Shown here: one piece after another, positions 45,522 through 54,939 of the stretch
How the letters are laid out: every line of letters starts with the position of its first letter
Position numbering within the stretch: the first letter of the stretch is position 1
From: Bacteroidales bacterium
Lineage (GTDB): Bacteria > Bacteroidota > Bacteroidia > Bacteroidales > TTA-H9
DNA length: 64,000 bases
Assembly (NCBI GenBank): GCA_030656615.1
Contig: JAUSOY010000078.1
Coordinates: 1 to 64,000 of the forward strand
Direction: 5' to 3'
Notes under the pieces: model-generated
Told to the model about the DNA's origin: nothing
Database searches by the model: none
What the model saw: the letters and a program-made list of their open reading frames with translations, nothing else
Position numbers and translations under genes: made by a program

Positions 45522-45710
45522 AACAAATATGACTCTCGGATATTTTGTTTTCCAAAATTTGGAATGGATTTTTTTAATTCTGTATCATTCGTCGATATAT
45601 CTATATTTATTTCATTGTTTTTCAGACCGTTATAATAACGGTACGCTTATTGTTCTATTGGAAATAGCTTAAAACAGTTAAATTGAATTTCACTTAAAAC
45701 ATTGAAGAAT

Positions 45711-47054
45711 ATGAAAAAACTACTCGGATTTCTGATCCTCGCAGGCGTACTTCTTGTCTCTTGTAGCAAGGAGGAGGCTCAGGTAAATCAAGGCAATTTT
45801 GATGATAAAGTTGTCGTAAATAATAACGCCGGAGATTTAAGTTCTATGTTCACCGTTGTTGATCAACCAATCGTTTTAAACACGAGCGGTTTAAAGGCAA
45901 CCAACAATCCTCCTATGCTCACCCTTAAAGGACGTTTTGATAGTCCTGTCGTTAATGGAGCAATCCTAAGTTCTTCGCACGTGTACTACAGTGCAAGTGA
46001 TCCAAACTACGTTTATGCAACTTTCCACGCTAGGGGTGAAGATTACGCCGGTGCTGTTGTTGTGTTTGATGTAAGCGGTCTTGGTGTTCCAACTCCAATT
46101 TCTATGATGACATTCACCAAAACTGATTTCAACGCTTTAACGATTGGAAGCATTGCTGGTCAAGACTATATTTTCCTTGCTGGTTCTAATAAAGCTTGGG
46201 GTGCCATTGTAATTAAAACCAAACTCATTGATGGTTACATCTCTCAGAATTTTGATGACATTACTTATACTAAATTAAACGAAGGTACTCTTAATCCTTA
46301 TGCTGCAACTAACGTAGCTTCAGCAAACAGCGTGTCTTTTGTTACTAGAACTGGTTTACCTCATTATGACGTATTCGTTGCAGCTGGCTTCACTAATGGT
46401 GCTGTTTACCGTTATGATGCAGCAACAATGATTCTGAGAGAAGCTCAGACAGTTATGCCTGGTGCCAAATTTACAACTGTAATTCCTGTTGATCCTCCAA
46501 AACTTCTTGCTCTTCAGTCAGGTGGAACGGCTAATGGTAAAGTTTATTGTTATGATTTCGATGATACTACCTGGACACTTCCTATGGTTCCAACTGCTAC
46601 ATGGCCTATGAATCTTGGATTTTCGATCAATCACCAATATGCCGCTGGTGCGTACGATGATGCAGGTAAAAATACTTTATTCCTCCGTGGAGACACAATG
46701 TATGTTGCTGCTGGTAAAAGTGGAATGAAAGCTTATGATGTAACCACTAAAGCATTGCTATATCAAGCACCATTTGATATGCTATCCCATGGTAATACCA
46801 ATGGTGTTAGTGCCGATACTGACTATGTTTACATGGCCAATGGCGAAGATGGACTTTATCTTGGAAAAGTTGAAACTTATGGTCCTTTGACAAGCGTACT
46901 GAGTATCGTTGGCTATTGGGACAACAGTAATGTAAATGGTCCCGCAGGTCAAATTGCTAGTGCCAATATGGTTACTTCAACTGGTACATACATTTTTGTT
47001 GCCAAAGGTGTAGAAGCTGGATTTGGTGGATTAGCAATTCTTGCCAAACCATAA
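45711..47054 (+). CDS. Beta-propeller-like lipoprotein (LVIVD-repeat type) 1
   Basis: 447 residues from the ATG at 45711 (an in-frame TTG 9 bases earlier is unlikely). It has a lipoprotein signal with lipobox LLVSC; the mature protein begins CSKEEAQ. The rest is beta-rich with repeated SxVxxxxVYYS, VVVFDVSG and DYVYMANGEDGL blades, as in LVIVD-type propellers of Bacteroidota. Many codons end in T or C in the style of highly expressed genes. It is paralogous to the protein at 47681-48919, sharing TFTKTD and IFLAGSN motifs. Function unknown; surface or periplasmic. Confidence 0.75.
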   Translation: MKKLLGFLILAGVLLVSCSKEEAQVNQGNFDDKVVVNNNAGDLSSMFTVVDQPIVLNTSGLKATNNPPMLTLKGRFDSPVVNGAILSSSHVYYSASDPNYVYATFHARGEDYAGAVVVFDVSGLGVPTPISMMTFTKTDFNALTIGSIAGQDYIFLAGSNKAWGAIVIKTKLIDGYISQNFDDITYTKLNEGTLNPYAATNVASANSVSFVTRTGLPHYDVFVAAGFTNGAVYRYDAATMILREAQTVMPGAKFTTVIPVDPPKLLALQSGGTANGKVYCYDFDDTTWTLPMVPTATWPMNLGFSINHQYAAGAYDDAGKNTLFLRGDTMYVAAGKSGMKAYDVTTKALLYQAPFDMLSHGNTNGVSADTDYVYMANGEDGLYLGKVETYGPLTSVLSIVGYWDNSNVNGPAGQIASANMVTSTGTYIFVAKGVEAGFGGLAILAKP

Positions 47055-47680: not shown

Positions 47681-48919
47681 ATGAAAAAACTATTAGCTTT
47701 ATTTTTTGTCGCCAGTATATTCTTCGTCTCTTGTACCAAAGAGGAAGTTATACCGGAGCCAACCGTAAACCCCAACGATGAAGTTTATCAGGTTAACAAC
47801 AACGACCTGGAACTAAGTCAACGCTTGACTTTTATTAACGAACCCCTAAAATTAGACGGAATTCTCAAGTCGGGCAATCCTACTTTTACCCTGTTGGCCG
47901 AAGCTGCAAGCCCAACGGTTAATGGTGTAAAATTAAGTGCTTCCTTCGTTCTTAAAAGAGGCAATAACATTTACGTTTCATACCATGAAAGAGGAAATGG
48001 ATATGGCGGTGCTATCGTTGTTTACAACGTTTCCAATATCACCAACCCCACCATTATTTCTCAAATGACTTTTACAAAAACGGATATTAATGCTGTCGAT
48101 ATCAATCAGGAAGGTACTTTTATTTATCTGGCCGGTTCAAATCGCTCAAAAGGCGCTGTAGTTCTTAAAACCAGCCTTTTGAATACCGGAGCACTTTCTC
48201 AAAACTTCGGCAACATGAGCATTACCAAAGTTGGCGAAGCCTATTCAGCCAATGGTGTTATCCAGGGTGGTAACTGGGTGTATGTTTCAGCAGGCAACTC
48301 TGTTGGTGGTTTGTATATGTACAACAAAAATACCATGGCTTTCGAAGACGCTGATTATTACACAGGCGCAAAATATTCGACAGCAAACGGTCGGGCAAAC
48401 GGAAAGAATCACCTTTCATTTGAGGCTGGCCCCACTTCATCCTACTTACACGTTTACGTTATTGGTACCGATGATACGCAAGTTGAGCGTGTTTTCAGTG
48501 TTGGACCTACTACCCATCAGAATGTAGAACCAGAATTTGTAAATTTTGGTAAGAATGCCATGTTCATTAAACCAAACTCAGATATATGTTATATTGCCCG
48601 TGGAATGTACGGAATGAAAGCCTTTAAAATTACAAATGGTGCAATGGTTTACAAATCACCCGAAGGAATGATTACCAATGGAAATACCAATGGCGTAGGT
48701 GCTGATAATGATTTTGTATATATGGCGAATGGTGCACAGGGCTTGTTTATTGCGGCTCCTCCGGTAAATGGAAGCACACTAAATATTGTAGGTGTTTGGG
48801 ACGACCCCAATTACCCCGGTAGCGCCAATATGGTTTATTCGGATAACACACACATTTTTGTAGCCAAAGGACAGGAAGGTGGACTTAAAATTCTTTTGAA
48901 AACACTTTACCTTCCATAA
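47681..48919 (+). CDS. Beta-propeller-like lipoprotein (LVIVD-repeat type) 2
   Basis: 412 residues with lipobox FFVSC; the mature protein begins CTKEEVIPEP. Paralogue of the lipoprotein at 45711-47054: same order of motifs VVVYNVS, MTFTKTDINAV, YLAGSNRSKGAVVLKT, ARGMYGMKAF, NGNTNGVGAD and DFVYMANG. It presumably arose by tandem duplication, with the repeat cluster in between. Function unknown; outer-membrane or surface location inferred from the lipid anchor. Confidence 0.75.
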   Translation: MKKLLALFFVASIFFVSCTKEEVIPEPTVNPNDEVYQVNNNDLELSQRLTFINEPLKLDGILKSGNPTFTLLAEAASPTVNGVKLSASFVLKRGNNIYVSYHERGNGYGGAIVVYNVSNITNPTIISQMTFTKTDINAVDINQEGTFIYLAGSNRSKGAVVLKTSLLNTGALSQNFGNMSITKVGEAYSANGVIQGGNWVYVSAGNSVGGLYMYNKNTMAFEDADYYTGAKYSTANGRANGKNHLSFEAGPTSSYLHVYVIGTDDTQVERVFSVGPTTHQNVEPEFVNFGKNAMFIKPNSDICYIARGMYGMKAFKITNGAMVYKSPEGMITNGNTNGVGADNDFVYMANGAQGLFIAAPPVNGSTLNIVGVWDDPNYPGSANMVYSDNTHIFVAKGQEGGLKILLKTLYLP

Positions 48920-50416: not shown

Positions 50417-52447
50417 ATGAATTTTAAACTCATTTCCGATTTTAGTCCTACCGGTGATCAGCCGGAAGCAATTCGACAGCTCACCGAAAGTATACAACGT
50501 GGAGAACATGCTCAGGTATTACTTGGTGTAACGGGTTCAGGAAAAACGTTTACGGTGGCCAATGTATTGGAAAAGCTGAACCGTCCAACGCTTATTCTCA
50601 GTCACAACAAAACACTCGCAGCACAGTTATACGGAGAGTTTAAGCAATTTTTCCCGGAGAATTCTGTTGAATTTTTCGTGTCGTATTATGATTATTATCA
50701 GCCTGAAGCTTACATTCCTACCACAAATACATATATTGAGAAGGATTTAAGCATCAATGAAGAGATCGAAAAGCTACGATTGAGCACGACTTCTGCATTG
50801 CTTTCCGGAAGAAGAGATATTATTGTTGTTTCATCGGTATCATGTATTTATGGTATCGGAAATCCGGACGATTTTTCTCAAAATATTATCCGCATGAATA
50901 TCGGAGACAAAATCCACAGAAACCGTTTTCTATTGGATATGGTTGCTGCATTGTACTCGAGAACGGAGGCAGAGTTTAAACGAGGAAATTTTCGTGTAAA
51001 AGGTGATACCGTTGATGTTTTTCCAGCCTATGCGGATTTTGCTTATCGTATTGTTTTTTGGGGTGATGAAGTGGAGGATCTTGAGGTTATCGATCCAATT
51101 TCCGGGCATAGAACGGAAACATTGACAAATATGACCATTTTCCCTGCCAATATTTTCGTAACTTCTCAGGACAGTATGAAAAATGCGGTCAAAGACATTC
51201 AGGACGATTTATTTAAACAAATCGAATATTTTAAACAAACGGGTAAACATCTTGAAGCCAAACGATTAGAAGACAGAGTAAATTACGATTTGGAGATGAT
51301 GAAAGAGCTGGGGTATTGTCCGGGAATTGAAAATTATTCGCGATACTTCGACGGCAGGAACCCTGGAAGCAGACCCTTTTGCCTTATCGACTATTTTCCT
51401 GACGATTTTCTCTTCGTCGTTGACGAAAGTCATGTCACCGTTCCACAAGTTCGTGGCATGTACGGAGGCGATCGAAGCAGAAAACTGAATTTGGTTGATT
51501 ATGGATTTCGCTTGCCCTCGGCTCTTGATAATCGTCCACTGAAATTTGATGAATTTGAAGGAATGATTAATCAGGTTATATATGTTAGTGCAACTCCTGC
51601 TGAGTATGAATTACAGCAAAGCGAAGGGATTGTCGTAGAACAAGTTATACGCCCGACAGGTTTACTTGATCCTCAAATAGAGGTCAGGCCAAGTTTAAAT
51701 CAGATAGATGATTTACTGGCAGAAATTGAATTAACGGTTAAGCGAAAAGAAAGGGTATTGGTAACCACGCTTACAAAGCGCATGGCAGAAGAATTGACGA
51801 AATATTTTGCCCGCATTGGCATAAAATGCCGGTATATTCATTCGGATATTGAAACGCTTGAAAGAGTTGAAATAATGCGTGATTTACGAATGGGTGTGTT
51901 TGATGTATTGGTAGGCGTAAATTTACTTCGTGAAGGACTTGATTTACCGGAGGTTTCGCTGGTAGCCATCCTTGATGCTGATAAAGAAGGTTTTTTACGT
52001 TCAGAACGCTCACTAACTCAAACGGCAGGCAGAGCTGCACGCAACATCAATTCTAAAGTAATTATGTATGCTGATAAAATAACCAACAGTATGCAGAAAA
52101 CAATGGACGAAACACTTCGCCGGCGGGATAAGCAAATGGAATACAATATAAAGAACGGAATAACTCCCACGCAAATCATTAAAAATACTCAATCTATTTT
52201 AGGTCAGACTGCCGTGGCCGATTCAAAAAAATATTCCAATAAAGCATATTACGATAAGGAAGAAATAAACATAGCAGCCGATCCATTGGTTGCCTATATG
52301 AATCCGGATCAAATAAAAGAAATGATTGATTCTTCCAAAAAAAACATGGAAAATGCTGTAAAGGAACTTGATTTCATTGCAGCAGCACGATTTCGTGATG
52401 AAATATCACAGTATAAAACACTTCTCGAATCCAGGTTAAATCATTAA
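50417..52447 (+). CDS. uvrB: Excinuclease ABC subunit UvrB
   Basis: 676 residues from the ATG at 50417 (MNFKLISDFSPTGDQPEAI); in-frame starts further upstream fall in the lipoprotein terminator. Walker A GVTGSGKTF, the beta-hairpin region VSYYDYYQPEAYIP, helicase motifs (LREGLDLPEVSLVAILDADK) and the C-terminal UVR coiled coil (AVKELDFIAAARFRDEI) are all present. UvrB verifies DNA damage together with UvrA and recruits UvrC. No other uvr gene is near, as is usual. Confidence 0.97.
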   Translation: MNFKLISDFSPTGDQPEAIRQLTESIQRGEHAQVLLGVTGSGKTFTVANVLEKLNRPTLILSHNKTLAAQLYGEFKQFFPENSVEFFVSYYDYYQPEAYIPTTNTYIEKDLSINEEIEKLRLSTTSALLSGRRDIIVVSSVSCIYGIGNPDDFSQNIIRMNIGDKIHRNRFLLDMVAALYSRTEAEFKRGNFRVKGDTVDVFPAYADFAYRIVFWGDEVEDLEVIDPISGHRTETLTNMTIFPANIFVTSQDSMKNAVKDIQDDLFKQIEYFKQTGKHLEAKRLEDRVNYDLEMMKELGYCPGIENYSRYFDGRNPGSRPFCLIDYFPDDFLFVVDESHVTVPQVRGMYGGDRSRKLNLVDYGFRLPSALDNRPLKFDEFEGMINQVIYVSATPAEYELQQSEGIVVEQVIRPTGLLDPQIEVRPSLNQIDDLLAEIELTVKRKERVLVTTLTKRMAEELTKYFARIGIKCRYIHSDIETLERVEIMRDLRMGVFDVLVGVNLLREGLDLPEVSLVAILDADKEGFLRSERSLTQTAGRAARNINSKVIMYADKITNSMQKTMDETLRRRDKQMEYNIKNGITPTQIIKNTQSILGQTAVADSKKYSNKAYYDKEEINIAADPLVAYMNPDQIKEMIDSSKKNMENAVKELDFIAAARFRDEISQYKTLLESRLNH

Positions 52448-52593: not shown

Positions 52594-52983
52594 ATGAAGA
52601 CGAAACGGATACTTGTTATTGATGATGAATTAAGCATCAGGCTTCTACTCGAAAACTATCTAAAAAAAACGTATGAGGTGGTCAGTCTGAATAATGGAGA
52701 AGAAGGACTTATCTGGCTACAAAAAAACATTCCCGAATTGATTATTTGCGATATTCAAATGCCATTAATGAATGGATATGACTTTATCAAAAACGTAAGA
52801 GCATCTGGTTTCTTAAAGCACACACCGATAATCATGTTATCAGGAGAAGAAAGTAGTGACAGCCGTGTAAAGTGCTATAAGCTTGGAGCTCAGGATTTTC
52901 TTTTAAAACCTTTCAACATACAGGAATTGGATCAAGTAATTTTAAAAAATATTAATCCCATCCATTACGCGATAGAATGGTAA
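52594..52983 (+). CDS. Stand-alone response regulator of the exopolysaccharide locus
   Basis: 129 residues from the ATG at 52594. All receiver residues are present: VIDDE, Asp53 in ICDIQMPLMNGYDF, Ser in MLSGEE and Lys-Pro in LLKPF. There is no output domain. It is the first gene of the run, 11 bases before a sugar transferase that carries a degenerate receiver of its own, which suggests the two proteins interact. Its cognate kinase is not in the neighbourhood. Confidence 0.92.
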   Translation: MKTKRILVIDDELSIRLLLENYLKKTYEVVSLNNGEEGLIWLQKNIPELIICDIQMPLMNGYDFIKNVRASGFLKHTPIIMLSGEESSDSRVKCYKLGAQDFLLKPFNIQELDQVILKNINPIHYAIEW

Positions 52984-52994
52984 ACCAAATCACA

Positions 52995-54188
52995 ATGAGT
53001 GAAATAGGAATAATTCATTTCTTATATATTGGTGAAAATCAAGTGGTTGTCGACATGCTCGCCTCTAAACCTGATTTGGTTTCTTTTCATCATGTTGAGA
53101 ATGCATTAGAAGCTGTTCAGTATATAAAATCTAATTCTAAAGTCAGGGCCATCCTATGTGAAGCCTGGTTACTTGGAGTAACAGGAATTAGTTTTTTTGA
53201 ATTTCTTAAAACAACACCAATTGCAGGTTCTCGCCAAATCCCTTTTTTCCTTCTTAATAAAGATTTTGATCAAAAACTATATAAAGAAGCCGTGTTGGCC
53301 GGTGTTGATGATTATTTCACACAACCATATAACCTTGATAATATTATTCTTCGCACAAATTTTTCGAATAAGTACTATCAACTATTTGTAAATCAGGATT
53401 TGGAAGGCAGGAAACCGGAAGAATTTAATATTGATTCCAAAAAGCGAATTTTCGACATTGTTGTTGCTGGTGGTATACTACTGTTCGCATCACCCTTTTT
53501 GGCAATTATTTGTTTTGCCATTTGGGCCGAATCAGGATTTAAAGGAAAAGTATATTATACTTCCAAGCGTTTCGGGAGATATCGGATTTTTGATTTTTAT
53601 AAGTTAAGAAGTATGTACCTCGATGCTGACAAAAGGTTAAAAGAAGTCAGACATCTTAACCAATATGCTTCTGCTGAAGTTGAAATGAACGATGATAATA
53701 TGGTTTGCCCTTTTTGCAGTAAACTGATTGAAGGCCAATATTGTTCTAATTTATTATACGACGGTGGGCAGCAGGTTTGTGAATATATTTTTCTTACAAC
53801 CAGAAAGAAAAAAGGTCAGGCTGCATTTCTGAAAATTAAAAATGACCCACGCGTAACCGTTGTTGGAAAATTCATTCGAAATACCAGTATTGATGAATTA
53901 CCACAATTAATTAATGTTTTAAAAGGAGATATGTCGATTGTTGGTAATCGTCCCCTACCCCTCTACGAAGCCTATTTACTTACATCCGATCAATACAGTG
54001 CCCGGTTTGGAGCACCAGCTGGTATAACGGGTTTATGGCAGGTTGAACTCAGAGGTAAAGGAGGCGTTATGAGTGAGGAAGAACGTAAAAGTCTGGACAA
54101 TATATATGCTGAAAATCATTCATTCTGGGGTGATATTAAACTGATTTTGAGAACTATACCTGCACTATTTCAAAAAGAAAACGTATAA
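52995..54188 (+). CDS. Pseudo-receiver fused to initiating sugar transferase
   Basis: 398 residues from the ATG at 52995. Residues 1-125 keep a receiver-like fold but lack its chemistry: YIGEN replaces the acidic pair, Glu56 stands at the phospho-acceptor site (LCEAWLLGVTG), and Gln110-Pro replaces Lys-Pro. A membrane helix (about 154-177) and a bacterial sugar transferase domain follow (RFGRYRIFDFYKLRSM, SIDELPQLINVLKGDMSIVG, GITGLWQVELRG). Inside it, a roughly 45-residue insert bears Cys238, Cys241, Cys250 and Cys262 (VCPFCSK), possibly a zinc site. The domain transfers a sugar phosphate to undecaprenyl phosphate to start polysaccharide assembly. Confidence 0.9.
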   Translation: MSEIGIIHFLYIGENQVVVDMLASKPDLVSFHHVENALEAVQYIKSNSKVRAILCEAWLLGVTGISFFEFLKTTPIAGSRQIPFFLLNKDFDQKLYKEAVLAGVDDYFTQPYNLDNIILRTNFSNKYYQLFVNQDLEGRKPEEFNIDSKKRIFDIVVAGGILLFASPFLAIICFAIWAESGFKGKVYYTSKRFGRYRIFDFYKLRSMYLDADKRLKEVRHLNQYASAEVEMNDDNMVCPFCSKLIEGQYCSNLLYDGGQQVCEYIFLTTRKKKGQAAFLKIKNDPRVTVVGKFIRNTSIDELPQLINVLKGDMSIVGNRPLPLYEAYLLTSDQYSARFGAPAGITGLWQVELRGKGGVMSEEERKSLDNIYAENHSFWGDIKLILRTIPALFQKENV

Positions 54189-54189
54189 T

Positions 54190-54939
54190 ATGATTAAAAA
54201 ACTCTTATTTTTTTTCATCCTCGCCTTTTCTTTTCATCATCTTGCCGCTCAAGAGAATGAGCAAGGGGTGTTTGATCCTATTACGGACGATATCACAAAA
54301 AAAATACCCCCATTAGAAGCCCTCATCGATTCAGCAATTGCTAATTCGCCTTATTTAAAATTCAGAGATGCACAAATTGTGATAAATCACTACAAATACC
54401 TCAATGATCGCTCGCAACTACTTCGTGATATTGGTTTTAGCATCGAGGCACGCTTTGGCAAATATGATAATTATTCGGAAAATAACACCACAGGCGTACC
54501 CATTTATACAGGCTCAGCCCGTAATGAGTGGAGGTATGGGGCTGGTGCATATATAAAAATTCCTCTTTACGATTTAACGAATCGCAAAACAACAATCAAC
54601 CTGGCGAAAAAAGAGGTTGAACAGGCCATAAATTATAGAAATACCCTTGCCTATGAGATTCGCCGTGATATCATCGTGATGTATAACGAATTAATTCTCA
54701 AGCAACGCTTGCTTAAAATAGCGAGTGATAATATGATTACGGCCGAATTACAAATGCAATTGGCCGAAAAACAATTTATGAGTGGTCAATTGCCACTGGG
54801 AGAATTGTCACGAATGACTGATTTACACGCCCGTGCAAAAATGTCGTATGAAGAAAATAAAATCGCTTTCCTTAACGCATATAAGCTGCTTGAAATTTTG
54901 GTGGGGGTAACTTTTAATTTAATGAATAGTATCCAGTAA
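54190..54939 (+). CDS. Half-length TolC-like outer membrane protein
   Basis: 249 residues with a signal peptide (cleavage after HHLAAQ). The sequence follows the OEP pattern (EALIDSAIANSPYLKFRDAQ, a beta-stretch with AYIKIPLYDLTNRKTTINLA, then long helices) but only once. TolC proteins of 430-490 residues have two such repeats. It begins one base after the sugar transferase stop. An outer-membrane export role in the locus is likely, possibly as a multimer of half-units. No Wza-type protein is seen nearby. Confidence 0.75.
   Translation: MIKKLLFFFILAFSFHHLAAQENEQGVFDPITDDITKKIPPLEALIDSAIANSPYLKFRDAQIVINHYKYLNDRSQLLRDIGFSIEARFGKYDNYSENNTTGVPIYTGSARNEWRYGAGAYIKIPLYDLTNRKTTINLAKKEVEQAINYRNTLAYEIRRDIIVMYNELILKQRLLKIASDNMITAELQMQLAEKQFMSGQLPLGELSRMTDLHARAKMSYEENKIAFLNAYKLLEILVGVTFNLMNSIQ

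Follow-up and report, generated by a model that had tools for sequence, protein, structure and literature searches.

Few cases are known in which the first committed step of polysaccharide synthesis is controlled post-translationally. One is EpsZ, an initiating transferase of M. xanthus that is stimulated after translation by the phosphorylated single-domain regulator EpsW (PMC12802240, mBio 2025); the authors of that study also mention fusions of receiver domains to small transferases and suggest that the principle may extend further. Fusions of a receiver with a small monotopic phosphoglycosyl transferase are in print (O'Toole 2021, as cited in PMC12802240). PleD of Caulobacter combines a receiver, a pseudo-receiver, and a diguanylate cyclase, and phosphorylation alters the contacts between receiver and pseudo-receiver; the 2025 review that describes it calls the mechanisms of pseudo-receivers a mystery and treats their role as an open question (PMC12632262). 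Against this background, we analyzed a sugar transferase gene from a Bacteroidales bacterium and the regulator gene in front of it, located in a 64,000-nucleotide stretch of contig JAUSOY010000078.1, hereafter the window.

The transferase, its N-terminal domain, and the surrounding locus

The features of the window that bear on the argument are as follows.

52594..52983, + strand: single-domain response regulator (SDRR), 129 aa, with an intact phosphorylation set (from its residues) and a KPFN..EL motif; PF00072, 97 bits
52977-54188, + strand: sugar transferase ORF; translation from the ATG at 52995 gives 397 aa
52995..53393, + strand: predicted degenerate (pseudo-)receiver domain, residues 1-133 of the transferase, from an AlphaFold2 model, PDB receivers, and alignment
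53160..53162, + strand: codon of Glu56, the phospho-acceptor position in alignments
53442..54170, + strand: catalytic domain (PF02397) of a small monotopic phosphoglycosyl transferase, Asp300-Glu301 kept, from Pfam and homologue alignments
53706..53783, + strand: four-Cys insert (CPFC...C...C) within the catalytic domain, read from the sequence
54190..54939, + strand: short outer-membrane efflux protein (OEP), the conserved next gene; PF02321, 58 bits
54942..57545, + strand: Wzc/Wzz-like chain-length protein with a LysM domain; PF02706, PF01476
57551..60411, + strand: Wzx-like flippase and Wzy-type polymerase/ligase genes; PF13440, PF04932

The C-terminal part of the transferase is a Bac_transf domain (PF02397, 174 bits in Pfam), and its Asp-Glu pair (D300-E301), which we take to be the functional mark of this catalytic domain, is invariant in alignments of 14 and of 18 homologues. 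The PDB entries that match this part in sequence are those of WbaP and of N,N'-diacetylbacillosaminyl-1-phosphate transferase. The traits of the large members, an N-terminal four-helix membrane bundle and a DUF, are absent, since a soluble receiver fold directly precedes the catalytic domain, and full-length large-member profiles score far under their cut-offs. Judged from its sequence, with PF02397 and the Asp-Glu pair and without the bundle or DUF, the protein is a small monotopic phosphoglycosyl transferase. The four-Cys insert lies just ahead of a conserved DPR segment; most relatives keep it and others have a Cys-free stretch instead. A metal or redox site close to the active site is one possible role.

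Downstream of the transferase, the OEP gene and the Wzc/Wzz-like gene recur in 76 and 79, respectively, of 98 loci with the N-terminal domain, and the flippase and polymerase genes of the window are followed by genes for a CysQ-like phosphatase, a methyltransferase, and glycosyltransferases. By this gene content, the locus is assigned to the Wzx/Wzy-type exopolysaccharide loci. At about 250 aa, the OEP corresponds to roughly one OEP repeat, and nearly all homologous loci likewise encode a short form, mostly of 240-300 aa. On the other side of the pair, uvrB (50417-52447) lies directly upstream, as it does in many other genomes of the order, and two further ORFs (45702-47054, 450 aa, and 47681-48919, 412 aa) gave no Pfam match at 1e-5.

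About 150 extra residues precede the PF02397 part of the transferase, and the first-pass annotation had read the N-terminal 125 residues as a receiver in which the phosphorylated Asp is Glu56, Lys-Pro is Gln-Pro, and the acidic pair is lost. In Pfam, this N-domain is a sub-threshold match to PF00072 (20.5 bits against a cut-off of 30.2; E = 5e-4), and 15 of 19 homologous N-domains match the same family at E ≤ 0.1, the best at 9e-12. AlphaFold2, given the N-domain alone with 19 aligned homologues, returned a model with a pLDDT of 90.6, a pTM of 0.81, and a strict (beta-alpha)5 order. The solved chains nearest to this model are receivers or receiver-containing proteins, both by Foldseek (E = 8e-8) and by VIA (Z up to 17.6; rmsd 1.9 over 119 residues). 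The structure prediction that had been called for thus confirmed, at the level of a model, that the domain folds as a receiver. Alignment with the upstream regulator upheld the two substitutions, Glu56 and Gln-Pro, and further placed Asn at the Ser/Thr site and Gly13-Glu14 at the acidic pair, so that one acid remains where the pair had been called lost. A receiver fold and missing key phosphotransfer residues are the marks of a pseudo-receiver, and the N-domain appears, from its sequence and predicted fold, to have both.

The regulator encoded immediately upstream is intact, as had been proposed. It runs from an ATG at 52594 to a stop at 52981-52983, aligns with D-D, D, S, and K-P at the phosphorylation positions, and carries no output domain in Pfam. 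The two reading frames overlap or abut, an ATG at 52977 lying within the last codons of the regulator. The regulator scores 215 bits against a profile of its own family, compared with 90 bits for the next receiver of the window genome, and on these scores it belongs to a distinct family. Its C-terminal tail, like NPIHYAIEW, is common to some relatives, including those of Flavobacterium, and missing in others.

Phosphorylation-site loss and gene pairing across Bacteroidota

An N-domain search of 99 genomes found fusion proteins in several families; a scan of genome contigs with a single protein as query gave no match. To survey the N-domain more widely, we built a profile from 14 fusions and searched 393 genomes of the order, 395 of the phylum, and a named-genome collection, which yielded homologues in Flavobacterium, Allomuricauda, Mucilaginibacter, Cyclobacterium, Sediminibacterium, Hymenobacter, Rufibacter, a Prevotella MAG, and others. 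Three duplicate records were dropped (L128, L138, and L222, identical to L037, L044, and L062), a frameshifted locus (L043) was retained in the counts, and eight named loci (L051, L055, L057, L060, and L063-L066) were left out by a profile-start filter; in all eight of the latter, the catalytic part is preceded by 154-200 residues and a receiver ORF lies adjacent. The regulator gene of L138 (G047:C94) is split into two pieces with about 2 kb between them, as an insertion would leave it.

None of the 99 aligned Bacteroidota N-domains keeps the full phosphorylation set. The residue at the phospho-site is Glu in 65, Asp in 10, Gln in 7, Ser in 5, Asn in 4, Tyr in 3, Ala in 3, Lys in 1, and Thr in 1, and the switch Lys is retained in 14; for the most divergent N-domains, gaps in the shared loop make the alignment columns uncertain. 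Among the 61 rows with a conserved Gly after the site, Glu accounts for 39, Asp for 6, and Gln for 5. Glu occupies the site in 13 of the 14 relatives aligned first, which include the nearest to the window, and other residues occur elsewhere; the alignment therefore suggests that Glu is favored but replaceable in this part of the tree.

These counts bear on the earlier proposal that Glu mimics phospho-Asp and locks the domain in an active-like state, in which case the transferase would be constitutively active and independent of the regulator. The prevalence of Glu, near-invariant in the closest relatives, speaks for this proposal, as does the partial activation of many receivers by Glu substitution (PMC12632262). 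Against it, eight other residues fill the site in 34 of the 99 N-domains, Ser/Thr and Lys are both kept in only 4 of the 65 Glu domains and neither is kept in the domain of the window, and the same source states that the idea was disproved in some pseudo-receivers. We consider a Glu lock improbable for the transferase of the window, and reject a conserved phospho-mimic as the common principle of the family, given the non-Glu sites; as a general mechanism, the earlier claim found no support.

Of 96 N-domain transferases with 450 nt or more of upstream sequence, 94 are directly preceded by a short intact receiver gene; of three further rows with less, one shows the regulator and two do not. In contrast, among related transferases that lack the N-domain, 8 of 28 have an adjacent regulator (first scored as 9 of 29, before removal of L227, in which a frameshift has separated the N-domain from the transferase, so that it was scored as a "regulator"). 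Fisher's test gives p = 1e-14, only a guide in view of the relatedness of the rows. The complete phosphorylation set is present in 97 of 103 partners without L227 (97 of 104 as scored); the site is Asp in 100 of 103, every scored row has Lys and Pro, and 96 of 104 contain a KPFNP motif. Two partners that stand beside divergent fusions (L193 and L194) themselves carry Glu at the site.

The pairing also holds in the reciprocal direction. In the 393 genomes of the order, 45 of 48 regulator matches of at least 150 bits lie just upstream of an N-domain transferase, and the other three comprise a contig end beside a truncated N-domain (G092), a contig end (G209), and an unlinked regulator (G084), the N-domain transferase of that genome being on a different contig without an adjacent partner. 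The pairing thins below 150 bits, to 62 of 76 at 118 bits. Tandem fusions in two genomes have one regulator per transferase. Chance neighborhood can be rejected on the two counts, 94 of 96 and 45 of 48.

In a quick tree of 127 catalytic domains, supported by SH-aLRT only, 13 short transferases with neither N-domain nor adjacent partner form one clade (support 100) nested among paired fusions, as would be expected if domain and partner had been lost together or if the gene had been copied without both. The eight short transferases that do have an adjacent regulator include three genomes of one family (f140), and for five more short transferases, a receiver bearing the KPFNP motif is encoded 2-2.5 kb upstream. 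A gene of about 680-700 aa, which reads like an exported lipoprotein, lies between the regulator and the short transferase in four of these five loci (L062, L214, L221, and L224). Conversely, one genome (G736) encodes an N-domain transferase and no regulator of the partner family; there, the genes in front of the fusion encode a histidine kinase and a FIST protein. Since short transferases can have the regulator, while the N-domain almost always does, the domain predicts the partner and not the reverse, and the notion that the two always occur together holds one way only.

A further alternative is that the pseudo-receiver competes with the regulator for a kinase or phosphatase, in which case the transferase would feed back on signaling rather than be controlled by it. 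Binding competitors of this kind are discussed for pseudo-receivers in PMC12632262, and three loci, from Allomuricauda or other members of the class, have kinase genes upstream of or close to the pair, with FIST genes in two of them and LytTR and STAS genes in one; the locus of G736, with kinases and without the regulator, would also fit. Yet Pfam found no histidine kinase gene adjoining the pair in the window, although the genome as a whole contains 56 HisKA matches over the cut-off, and we consider such competition at least as improbable as a Glu lock.

The pseudo-receiver as a putative docking adaptor

A domain that has uniformly lost its phosphorylation set and is kept in many families beside a phosphorylatable partner is best read as an adaptor. 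We think it somewhat probable that the phosphorylated partner docks on the degenerate receiver and, by way of this adaptor, controls the small transferase. Five observations form the basis of this reading: the predicted fold, the loss of the phosphorylation set, the intact partner, the phylum-wide pairing, and the joint absence of domain and partner in one clade. The reciprocal count, the tandem fusions with a regulator each, and the kinase genes upstream in three loci of Allomuricauda or its kin also speak for it, with EpsW/EpsZ and PleD as precedents. In the proposed sequence of events, the transferase would start exopolysaccharide synthesis by transferring a sugar-1-phosphate onto undecaprenyl phosphate, a kinase encoded elsewhere would phosphorylate the upstream regulator on its Asp, and the phosphorylated regulator would bind the N-terminal receiver, which, having lost phosphotransfer, would act as the docking adaptor. 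Binding, which we presume to depend on phosphate, would then raise or permit, rather than inhibit, transferase activity at the membrane.

Several observations count against the adaptor. Transferases without the domain have 8 adjacent and 5 more distant regulators, so that linkage of the regulator to the locus does not require an adaptor. The N-domain is poorly conserved: its mean pair identity is 21%, whereas the regulator reaches 46% and the catalytic part 55%. Such low conservation is unusual for a surface that binds a specific partner. The domain of G736 occurs without a regulator of the partner family, and no kinase stands beside the window pair. Apart from these points, partial correlations of distance matrices, 0.46 between regulator and N-domain given the catalytic part and 0.34 between regulator and catalytic part given the N-domain, are only weak evidence, since they still contain lineage effects.

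The first-pass annotation had offered, as an alternative to a Glu lock, that the domain is a docking platform for the adjacent regulator. This part of the proposal gained support from comparative genomics, through the contrast between fusions and short transferases and the 13-member clade, and none from modeling: an artificial read-through of regulator and transferase (L038) gave mostly well-folded domains with a pTM of 0.50 and no interface. Its superposition on PleD (2v0n and 2wb4) aligned 254-256 residues only at an rmsd of 15 Å, a domain-by-domain match from which no arrangement can be read.

Part of the evidence against the adaptor favors another explanation, in which the target of the regulator would be the catalytic domain, Wzc, or transcription, and the N-domain would be an inert or structural module, for example a dimerization piece that replaces the cytoplasmic DUF of large transferases. 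The regulators found near 13 of the 28 short transferases (8 adjacent and 5 about 2 kb away) and the low conservation of the N-domain would agree with it, and EpsW was modeled touching both the DUF and the catalytic domain of EpsZ (PMC12802240). This explanation leaves open why the domain is almost never without the regulator and why it should be a receiver and not any other fold. We regard it as unlikely, less so than a Glu lock or competition for a kinase.

Relation to EpsW/EpsZ, PleD, and other pseudo-receivers

EpsW/EpsZ already provides a known case of a receiver controlling an initiating transferase (PMC12802240), and fusions with the same domain combination as in the window are described there second-hand, from O'Toole 2021. 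The phylum-wide pairing with an intact regulator, together with the uniform loss of the phosphorylation set, was not found in searches of open-licence PMC text. Other bacterial pseudo-receivers and aspartate-less receivers likewise have a receiver fold without phosphotransfer residues, Glu being the commonest replacement; in contrast to the window system, neither a transferase output nor an obligate intact partner is named for them in the accessible parts of that literature (PMC12632262, PMC4395418). If the docking adaptor is real, a large family of pseudo-receivers gains a defined job in trans, and the pairing suggests a signal-dependent on/off switch for the synthesis of surface sugars. The two-gene module occurs in many Bacteroidota families, and natural relatives without the domain could serve as controls.

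With PleD, the window system shares a receiver, a pseudo-receiver, and an output enzyme. Its receiver, however, is a protein of its own, and its output enzyme is a membrane phosphoglycosyl transferase. The proposed mechanism would thus amount to a PleD-like arrangement in which the receiver is supplied by a separate gene. That such a split switch gates exopolysaccharide initiation across Bacteroidota, with a phosphorylated receiver docking on a transferase-fused pseudo-receiver, is a broader proposal that we put forward tentatively, as possible rather than probable.

With EpsW/EpsZ, the shared element is an intact single-domain response regulator as partner. EpsZ belongs to the large transferases and has four TM helices and a DUF, whereas the window transferase is small and carries a degenerate receiver; it therefore falls outside the EpsW/EpsZ type, in which a large transferase lacks the DUF beta-hairpin. 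A further difference is that the Bacteroidota transferase and regulator form a tight gene pair. By analogy, the best reading of the window system is as a cousin of the myxobacterial EpsW/EpsZ switch.
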